From: a virus
Virus record (IMG/VR): IMGVR_UViG_3300010354_000150
Coordinates: 1-46,116 of that record
Length of the DNA: 46,116 bases
Strand: one strand, 5' to 3'
Part shown: piece by piece, positions 18,624 through 20,956 of the stretch
Layout of the letters: the number at the start of each line of letters is the position of its first letter
Numbering within the stretch: position 1 is the first letter of the stretch
Position numbers and translations under genes: made by a program
The notes under the pieces: generated by a model
Told to the model about the DNA's origin: nothing
Seen by the model: the letters and a program-made list of their open reading frames with translations, nothing else
Database searches by the model: none

Positions 18624-18739
18624 AAAAACCATTTTTTAATGTGAAAAGCAACAATAGCAAACACAGTGAACCATGCGGCAAACAGCACCATATAGAGATA
18701 CGCCAAGGCCCACCAGCCTGCCTGCTCTCCTTCGTTCAC
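18620..18739 (-). CDS. 39-aa single-span membrane protein
   Basis: A GTG-started frame overlapping the ligase stop (GTGA) and the next ATG (ATGA). It reads VNEGEQAGWWALAYLYMVLF then AAWFTVFAIVAFHIKKWFL: one transmembrane helix of about 24 residues followed by a positive C-terminus. The double overlap strongly suggests a real gene. Membrane location is predicted; the role is unknown. Confidence 0.6.
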   Translation of the reverse strand: MNEGEQAGWWALAYLYMVLFAAWFTVFAIVAFHIKKWFL

Positions 18740-20028
18740 AGTTTTTCTCCAGGCTCAAATCCACGGAATCGCAAAAAGCGAGGGAACCGCAGACTATAAC
18801 TGCCATCTTGATTTTGTGTAATAGCGTCTGCTCTTACCTCAACCAACTGTCCAAGGAGACGATTACGGCCAGCCCAATAGTCGACGCGATTACTATCAGT
18901 AAAACCGCTACCGACATTGACTTCAATAAATCGGCCTCCGTCTTCTCCCTGGCAGACAAGTGCTCCCAGTCGTCCTTCGTTGCGTCCTGTTCCTTCTTCG
19001 ACACCTGCGACCTCCAATGTAACTTCAATAAATGGCTTGAGTTTAAGCCAGCTATAGGTGCGTTTACACTCGTAGGCCGCACCTGGGTCCTTGATCATAA
19101 TACCTTCGTAGCCACCGTCGATGGCTCGCTGATTAATTTCCCTGAACACTTGTCGACCTTCATCAGTATCAAGATCCACAAGTTCATGATTTAGAATTTC
19201 GATATTGGGCGTTTCCTCAGCCCACAGGTCTTTCCAAGACTTTAGTTTTTCACTACGCTGAGTTTGGCTTCGAGCCCAACGACCTGTTTGAAAGTCCTCT
19301 AGTGGGATATAATCAAACAAATGTAGCACAGCATCTGAGGCATTGACATTGTCCTTGCGATGTACCTGCTTCATCAAGTCTTGGAAACTACTTGACATCA
19401 CTTCGCCGTCGAATACCACTGGCTCCGTCAAACCAGTTACTGTTCGAGCGAACTGTTCCCGGATGTGACCAAAGTTTAGCAGTTCCTTGCCATTGCGACT
19501 GAACTGATCCACTCGGCCGTCCGGGTAGACGATTGTCAAAACCCTGACTCCATCCAGTTTGACTTCGATTAGTTTTTGCCCACATACCTTGCTTTCATGA
19601 TCTGTGCTGTCGTGTGCTAGTTGACAACTAAACACGGGAATGGCATTCTTGACTACTTTGTTAATGGTCTTTTCACTAACGCCGCAACGAAGATCCTTGA
19701 TAAGAATACGACGATACCAATAGTTCCATTGGTCGTTAGTTGAGTTTGACATACATTCTGCCAGCATGTCGCGAGCAGTATTGCCTGTGACTTCGCGGGT
19801 AGTGAAGCCTGTCAGCATAAGTGTAAAAGTGTCCCAAGAGACACCTTCGCCGTCTGCGCCTTTGCGTTCAGGCACTTGCTTCAAGCCAAAAGTAATCATT
19901 GGATCTAGGGCTAGCCTACATCCTTCCAAAAATTCTGCGTTATCTCGATTGGCATCAATAATCTGCTCTTTGTTAGTACGCAGATTATGAGCTTCGAGAT
20001 CCTTAATGATTTGCCACGGAGAATTCAT
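18736..20028 (-). CDS. 30: ATP-dependent DNA ligase (gp30-like)
   Basis: 430 aa. The nucleotidyltransferase motifs are present in order: motif I EVKLDGVR with adenylated Lys157, motif III VVFDGEVM near 203-210, motif IV YEGIMIKDP and motif V SWLKLKP, followed by an OB-fold with RFPRFLRFRG at the C-terminus. The N-terminal ~135 residues are helical, as in T4 gp30 (487 aa). It seals nicks, including Okazaki fragments, using ATP. A consensus host sigma70 promoter lies 33 nt upstream (20061-20089), so it should be expressed early and drives the small-gene block below it. Confidence 0.92.
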   Translation of the reverse strand: MNSPWQIIKDLEAHNLRTNKEQIIDANRDNAEFLEGCRLALDPMITFGLKQVPERKGADGEGVSWDTFTLMLTGFTTREVTGNTARDMLAECMSNSTNDQWNYWYRRILIKDLRCGVSEKTINKVVKNAIPVFSCQLAHDSTDHESKVCGQKLIEVKLDGVRVLTIVYPDGRVDQFSRNGKELLNFGHIREQFARTVTGLTEPVVFDGEVMSSSFQDLMKQVHRKDNVNASDAVLHLFDYIPLEDFQTGRWARSQTQRSEKLKSWKDLWAEETPNIEILNHELVDLDTDEGRQVFREINQRAIDGGYEGIMIKDPGAAYECKRTYSWLKLKPFIEVTLEVAGVEEGTGRNEGRLGALVCQGEDGGRFIEVNVGSGFTDSNRVDYWAGRNRLLGQLVEVRADAITQNQDGSYSLRFPRFLRFRGFEPGEKL

Positions 20029-20040
20029 ATTTTTGCCCGT

Positions 20041-20077
20041 AAAAAAACTCTATAGCACTTATTATAGTGCCATAGAG
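20041..20077 (-). terminator. Rho-independent terminator after the DUF465-like gene
   Basis: On the minus strand a stem of 6+5 bp (CTCTAT, mismatch, GCACT / AGTGC, mismatch, ATAGAG) with a 6-nt loop is followed directly by T7. It is 23 nt after the stop of the gene ending at 20100. The loop contains the -10 box of the ligase promoter. Confidence 0.65.
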
Positions 20078-20089
20078 ATTTTGTGTCAA
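20061..20089 (-). promoter_or_regulatory. Consensus sigma70 promoter for DNA ligase
   Basis: On the minus strand TTGACA (20089-20084), exactly 17 nt, and TATAAT (20066-20061): a full match to the bacterial housekeeping consensus. The -10 box is the loop of the terminator hairpin, so a transcript started here lacks the left arm of the stem and would not terminate. Confidence 0.75.
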
Positions 20090-20099
20090 TTAATCGGAT

Positions 20100-20309
20100 T
20101 TAGTCCCAATCAATGCGATTCATTAGCCCGTGTCGCTTGCGGTACAGGTCGCTTAACTGATCTTTAAGGCGAAGTTTTTGCTTTTTGAGATCTTCAGCTT
20201 GATACTCGTCCCAACTTTTCTGCTTGTACATAGCATCAAGCTGACGCTCGATAGTAGTGTGTTGGTTGGTCAATGATCTGATGTGATGTTCTAGAGAATC
20301 CATGTCCAT
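20100..20309 (-). CDS. DUF465/SlyX-like small coiled-coil protein
   Basis: A 69-aa protein started at 20309, which has an AAGGAG Shine-Dalgarno 6 nt upstream. MDMDSLEHHIRSLTNQHTTI is followed by LDAMYKQKSWDEYQAEDLKK and QKLRLKDQLSDLYRKRHG: two helices with the ExxxxLKKxKLxLKDxL pattern of DUF465 (YdcH-like). The family is widespread in bacteria and phages and of unknown function. It is transcribed from the promoter at 20360-20388 and followed by a terminator. Confidence 0.65.
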   Translation of the reverse strand: MDMDSLEHHIRSLTNQHTTIERQLDAMYKQKSWDEYQAEDLKKQKLRLKDQLSDLYRKRHGLMNRIDWD

Positions 20310-20340: not shown

Positions 20341-20369
20341 TTGACATACAATATTTACTAGTATATACT
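20341..20369 (+). promoter_or_regulatory. Sigma70 promoter for the HNH gene
   Basis: TTGACA (20341-20346), 17 nt, TATACT (20364-20369). The predicted start site is near 20376, leaving a leader of about 45 nt before the HNH ATG. The -10 box lies in a 16-bp palindrome shared with an opposing promoter. Confidence 0.65.
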
Positions 20370-20372
20370 AGT
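20357..20372. repeat. Perfect 16-bp palindrome, operator-like
   Basis: ACTAGTATATACTAGT reads the same on both strands and contains the -10 boxes of both overlapping divergent promoters. It could bind a dimeric regulator or simply create a symmetric bidirectional promoter. Confidence 0.7.
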
Positions 20373-20388
20373 TTTTTCTCATTGTCAA
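20360..20388 (-). promoter_or_regulatory. Sigma70 promoter for the DUF465-like gene
   Basis: On the minus strand TTGACA (20388-20383), 17 nt, TATACT (20365-20360). It mirrors the plus promoter with the same hexamers and the same spacing, and the two cannot be occupied together. Confidence 0.65.
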
Positions 20389-20419
20389 AAAACAGTTTTT
20401 TCAAAGTTAAATATAATAA

Positions 20420-20956
20420 ATGAGCGATACACTACTACTAAACCATGACGGCAGCCCACTAAGCATGCTGCCGCCCAGTGTAATTGACTGGACCATGGCT
20501 ATCAAACTTATCTACTTAAACAAAGTAATGATAGTCAAAGAATACGATGATTGGACAGTTCGTAGCCAAAAACTAGAACTCAAAGTGCCCAGCATCGTTA
20601 TGACCAAGCGGTATGTTAAGCCAAGACAAAAAGTTTTGTTTAACCGTAAAATGGTTTATCTGCGGGACAATTATACTTGCCAGTACTGCGGGGATCAATT
20701 CCACGCTAAGGATTTGACATTGGATCATGTTAAACCCAAGAGCCTGGGCGGCAACAGCAGCTGGAGCAACTTGGTTACTTGCTGCGCTACTTGCAATTGG
20801 CTTAAGGGTGCTAAGGTTATGGACCCGTTGTCGAAGCCCAAAGAACCTAACTATTGGCAAATGGTTAGAGCTGCAAAACAGCATAATCATTTTAGCCTAA
20901 GAGATCCTGCATGGGCAGAATACTTGGGATACGATGCTGCTCAAGCAGCAGCCTAA
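20420..20956 (+). CDS. HNH endonuclease
   Basis: A 178-aa protein. The HNH core runs from residue 83: YTCQYCGDQF (Cys87, Cys90), LTLDHVKPKSLGG (Asp102-His103), WSNLVTCCATCNWLKG (Asn117, Cys122, Cys125). The four Cys form a structural zinc site and His103/Asn117 the betabeta-alpha-metal active site. N-terminal MSDTLLLNHDGSPLSMLPPS is typical of HNH proteins common in cyanobacteria and their phages. It is probably a freestanding homing or accessory nuclease. It has no Shine-Dalgarno; expression should be early from the promoter at 20341-20369. Its end abuts a convergent gene. Confidence 0.85.
   Translation: MSDTLLLNHDGSPLSMLPPSVIDWTMAIKLIYLNKVMIVKEYDDWTVRSQKLELKVPSIVMTKRYVKPRQKVLFNRKMVYLRDNYTCQYCGDQFHAKDLTLDHVKPKSLGGNSSWSNLVTCCATCNWLKGAKVMDPLSKPKEPNYWQMVRAAKQHNHFSLRDPAWAEYLGYDAAQAAA

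Follow-up and report, generated by a model that had tools for sequence, protein, structure and literature searches.

The 48 bp at 20341-20388 of the window - by which we mean the whole stretch of DNA analysed here, a 46,116-bp virus record from an uncultured T4-like myovirus with gp25-, gp6- and gp5-like baseplate proteins - are a predicted bidirectional sigma70 promoter of a known class, with 23 bp between the two starts, but with a consensus hexamer at both -35 positions. Early and late promoters, facing both directions, appear to be nested here within about 80 bp. We consider it probable that the host sigma70 polymerase uses the site early on as a strong bidirectional promoter, and that a gp55-type polymerase later uses the element TAAATA in both directions. 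What we observe directly are the sequence of the site, the positions of its elements, their conservation, an orientation bias of the TAAATA motif and a gp55 homologue in relatives.

Position and exactness of the mirrored promoter pair

On the plus strand, TTGACA (20341-20346) is followed by a 17-nt spacer and TATACT (20364-20369), and on the minus strand the same hexamers (TTGACA at 20388-20383, TATACT at 20365-20360) again enclose 17 nt, exactly as the earlier note had claimed. Each promoter scores 11/12, the score being the number of matches to the sigma70 -35 and -10 hexamers. The opposite-strand -10 hexamers (20360-20365 and 20364-20369) overlap by 2 bp, at 20364-20365, such that the -10 region is shared, and both lie within a 16-bp perfect palindrome, ACTAGTATATACTAGT, which we likewise find in place at 20357-20372. 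If +1 follows the -10 after 6 nt, the predicted starts fall at 20376 on the plus strand and 20353 on the minus strand, the very positions proposed before; their predicted separation, calculated from the hexamers alone, is 23 bp, where PMC10268837 recognises bidirectional promoters by opposite-strand starts 7-25 bp apart.

The pair is situated between two divergent genes: an HNH endonuclease-family gene of 178 aa on the plus strand (20420-20956), with no clear Shine-Dalgarno sequence, and a DUF465 gene of 69 aa on the minus strand (20100-20309; PF04325, E 2.5e-9), preceded by AAGGAG at 20321-20316 and with an ATP-dependent DNA ligase gene next to it (18736-20028, minus). Within the window, this is the junction of a minus-strand block of small genes plus the ligase with the plus-strand baseplate genes. 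The earlier assignment of the minus promoter to a DUF465/ligase side holds for DUF465, its direct target, and falls away for the ligase, which has a separate consensus promoter of its own, TTGACA-17-TATAAT, at 20089-20061. That promoter looks like it lies inside a terminator for the upstream RNA: on the minus strand at 20040-20089, its TATAAT sits in or next to the loop of a terminator-like 12-bp hairpin (20048-20077) followed by a T-run, and the ligase start falls in the 3' arm. Paired changes in the stem are seen among 12 aligned sequences, the window included, all chosen for having the hairpin; other ligase loci are without it.

Could such a pair merely be a chance resemblance within A+T-rich intergenic DNA? 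Weak pairs are indeed frequent: 400 dinucleotide shuffles of the window gave 679 opposite-strand pairs with 17-bp spacers and overlapping -10s in which each promoter scored at least 9/12. However, the same shuffles gave 10 pairs at 10/12 or better and a single one at 11/12 or better, so what makes the pair unusual is its near-consensus quality; overlap by itself would not do so, and the description of the arrangement as unusually exact is upheld. Taken with the conservation of the promoters in relatives, this makes chance a very unlikely explanation. The exact mirror pattern occurs in 10 stretches of viral contigs, forming 5 unrelated groups by blastn, against none for a reversed-hexamer control, and the 18-bp class in 21 stretches against 1 for the control; very exact mirror promoters are therefore rare but recurrent. 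An uncontrolled count in the genome_contigs set gave 12 stretches. The unrelated viral contigs that carry one are L144, L148, L151 and L152; L145-L147; L149; and L150, and in L145-L147 it sits between co-directional genes.

Conservation of the two predicted early promoters and of the palindrome

We compared 24 distinct intergenic sequences between DUF465 and HNH genes: 22 have a plus promoter that scores at least 11/12, L029 and L030 being the exceptions. The TTGACA of this promoter is identical in 22 of the 24, and its -10 reads TATAAT, TACAAT or TATACT in relatives. In 5 of these 24 (the window, L010, L024, L028 and L032), a minus promoter that scores at least 10/12 over a spacer of 17 bp sits precisely at the mirror offset; its -35 is again TTGACA in L024, L028 and L032, and the weaker TTGAAT in L010. 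Another of the 24, L004, has TTGACG-16-TACAAT (10/12) on the minus strand, with the same -10 as the mirror -10.

The wider sample comprised 81 HNH loci (80 plus the window), of which 69 were tabulated after leaving out near-copies (L156, L159, L161, L163, L164, L168, L175, L178, L179 and L181) and cut genes (L199 and L203); removal of 10 duplicate upstream sequences left 59 distinct loci. The mirror minus promoter is found in 8 of the 31 distinct DUF465-bearing loci (a hand count from the table), including 4/4 of the window's clade, by a rule that was set after the data had been seen: a minus score of at least 10/12, a spacer of 16-18 and a -10 at the mirror offset. Since the other 23 of the 31 rows fail this rule, the minus early promoter would seem to be dispensable in many relatives. 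Among those that fail it, L186, L188 and L189 have a weaker minus promoter (9-10/12) shifted by 5 bp, which is the 18-bp class. In place of the 23-bp class, L187, L188 and L189 have palindromes built around TATAATA upstream of the HNH gene, such as ATGCTATAATAGCAT in L189; two of the three, L187 and L189, have a TG preceding the -10 on each strand, in the manner of an extended -10.

On an HNH tree of 39 rows, from which duplicates and the distant rows L206-L232 (except L210) were dropped, the window's clade consists of the window, L180, L160 and L210 (support 99/87), all with the mirror promoter. L154, L170 (where the minus -35 is TTTACA), L184 and L190 also carry it and are placed elsewhere on the tree, and parsimony requires 5 changes for the mirror state. 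We take this state to be old, with losses, although the parsimony count would also fit repeated gain.

Across the window and five other mirror loci, mean pairwise identity is 100% in the plus -35, 83% in the minus -35 and 79% in the -10 pair, compared with 69% in the plus-only spacer, 50% in the minus-only spacer and 30-34% in the flanks, figures that describe only these six loci, which were picked for carrying a mirror promoter with 17-bp spacers. In these six, hexamers that outlast both spacers and flanks are the mark of what we read as two selected promoters. The position of the pair, the conservation of its hexamers beside drifting spacers and its presence in all members of the clade support the earlier proposal of overlapping, mutually exclusive sigma70 promoters, one for the HNH gene and one facing DUF465, including the conservation in close relatives on which that proposal had been made to depend.

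The palindrome has fared differently. The earlier note had also raised the possibility that it serves a dimeric regulator as an operator, in which case a phage protein would repress both promoters and the symmetry would have been selected for its binding; indeed, the perfect 16-bp dyad covers both -10s, just where a repressor would block both. However, contiguous dyad pairs counted from the centre number 8 in the window and only 1, 3, 1, 5 and 1 in five mirror relatives, in which the -35 hexamers stay, and no second copy of the palindrome is found anywhere in the window at up to 3 mismatches. The conservation of the palindrome that was to be sought in relatives is thus confined to the two -10s, its outer parts not being kept, and because of this the operator reading fails; we rejected it, and consider it hardly probable. 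For the most part, the palindrome is a by-product of the two mirrored -10s.

TAAATA elements as candidate late promoters

The most constant feature of the plus spacer outside the hexamers is TATTTA, which reads as TAAATA on the minus strand (20357-20352; GTAAATA at 20358-20352). It occurs in the plus spacer of 27 of the 31 loci with a divergent DUF465 gene and in 0 of the 28 without (59 distinct loci, reached from a start with all loci except L199 and L203), an association confounded with kinship, as it is also the more distantly related HNH loci that lack DUF465. Of the 8 relatives searched, 7 have TTGACA-N5-TATTTA without mismatch, at this locus and nowhere else. A spacer-specific class of early promoter was dropped as a candidate. 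Since TATTTA tracks the DUF465 gene and the longer pattern is found only here, we read the element as a candidate T4-type late promoter of DUF465, lying inside the spacer of the plus early promoter and with a predicted start at about 20346.

A second copy, TTAAATA at 20407-20413 on the plus strand, lies 6 nt before the HNH ATG and is a candidate late promoter of that gene, with a predicted start at about 20419 and an mRNA that would be nearly leaderless. Across the 59 distinct loci, the commonest distance from TAAATA to the HNH ATG is 5 nt, putting the predicted +1 on the ATG itself. In many loci, those of distant HNH relatives included, 5-6 nt separate TAAATA from the HNH ATG, which predicts a leaderless late mRNA. 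TAAATA is only 6 bases long, and the copy of the HNH gene could be a translation signal and not a promoter.

T4 late promoters are given in PMC1524935 as TATAAATA at -13 to -6, with a CTAAATA variant in Aeh1. Elements of this kind are found here oriented upstream of genes, although at this site it is the core TAAATA only, preceded by G on the minus strand or T on the plus strand. In the window, 10 of the 31 TAAATA sites are intergenic, so that TAAATA ranks second among 6-mers for intergenic placement, behind the self-complementary AATATT; 9 of the 31 have a same-strand start no more than 60 nt downstream. Taking the window together with 160 kb of three relatives, the 60 nt that precede an ATG hold 32 sites pointing towards it, versus 8 in the opposite orientation. 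A gp55 homologue is present in 7/7 relatives searched (E 3e-7 to 5e-9). Late-type TAAATA elements in both directions had been absent from the earlier note. Elsewhere in the window, the divergent intergenic region at 2127-2188 has TAAATA at 2143 on the plus strand and at 2171 on the minus strand, a candidate divergent late pair.

How might these elements work together? Just after infection, host sigma70 RNA polymerase would bind the shared -10 facing one way or the other, and each binding event would lead either to HNH mRNA (from near 20376) or to DUF465 mRNA (from near 20353), but not to the two together. With a consensus hexamer at each -35 and 17 bp in each spacer, high occupancy would be expected, and with it competition between the two directions. 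Later, a gp55-type late polymerase would use TAAATA both ways, in the plus spacer for DUF465 and just before the ATG for HNH; at the nested copy it would start DUF465 RNA and at the same time cover the early plus promoter. Promoter activity, its timing, competition and the late displacement of early use at the nested site are what we infer. In its fullest form - a two-layer bidirectional control node of ~80 bp, sigma70 early and gp55 late both ways, in which a late DUF465 promoter placed inside the early HNH promoter lets the late polymerase evict the early one, and late HNH mRNA starts at or next to its ATG - we put this model forward tentatively.

Perhaps, instead, only the plus (HNH) promoter is early, the minus direction being served by the late TAAATA and the mirrored sigma70 match being a by-product of near-symmetry in the -10. 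This would fit a plus promoter at 11/12 or better in 22/24 sequences and TATTTA in 27/31 loci beside a mirror minus promoter in just 8/31. Yet symmetry of the -10 cannot account for the far TTGACA, exactly 17 nt away, that the window has in common with L024, L028 and L032, nor for the retention of the minus -35 beside a drifting spacer and flank. We regard this alternative as unlikely, and favour two early promoters followed by late use of TAAATA.

Known systems and genome setting

Bidirectional bacterial promoters with shared -10 elements were reportedly described by Warman et al. in 2021, a paper cited in PMC10268837 and PMC12825309. Our site resembles this class in its overlapping opposite-strand -10s, its predicted 23-bp start separation - one of the common spacings, according to PMC12825309 - and its setting between divergent genes. 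It differs in having the full TTGACA and a 17-bp spacer on both sides, whereas the five E. coli bidirectional promoters tested in PMC12825309 were, at their basal activity, not active enough to compete, and competition emerged in vitro only after a -35 had been improved. These weaker promoters are there credited with competition and noise effects and with no bistable switch; the regulated one-site switch envisaged in the earlier note is here a conjecture. The late elements share with those of T4 a TAAATA core upstream of late genes, as well as the gp55 homologue in relatives, but one of the two copies here sits within the spacer of a predicted early promoter, and the HNH copy comes, in many loci, to 5-6 nt from its ATG. 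In the stretch of T4 that was checked, the 8 TATAAATA sites with a start codon no more than 60 nt away lie at 14-28 nt.

Promoters that share a -10 are thus known, as is the 23-bp spacing; the putative strength on both sides and the nested candidate late element are new. Searches of open-licence PMC papers on phage and bidirectional promoters turned up no title or opening of an abstract describing such an arrangement, and none of the titles found for DUF465 with phage concerns phage DUF465. A natural, conserved bidirectional promoter with two consensus -35s is a ready test of polymerase competition at high occupancy, and the nested element points to a way in which a phage might pass a single site from early to late transcription.

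DUF465 had no match among 50,697 phage records, and no isolate with this locus was found there. HNH relatives among isolates reach 48% identity in PA5oct-like phages; in MIJ3, the single PA5oct-like phage inspected, the HNH gene is co-directional with its neighbours, so there is no homologous divergent site. Consensus TTGACA-17-TATAAT early promoters are numerous in relatives, with 42+7 in G001, for example, against 1+5 for a reversed-pattern control. Nearly all consensus early promoters of the relatives point the DUF465/ligase way (42 vs 7 in G001, 36 vs 6 in G003, 25 vs 2 in G002), making the HNH promoter one of the few that face the other way. Many early promoters of G001, G002 and G003 have an extended form near TTGACACAAATTgg...TATAAT, often in tandem runs.
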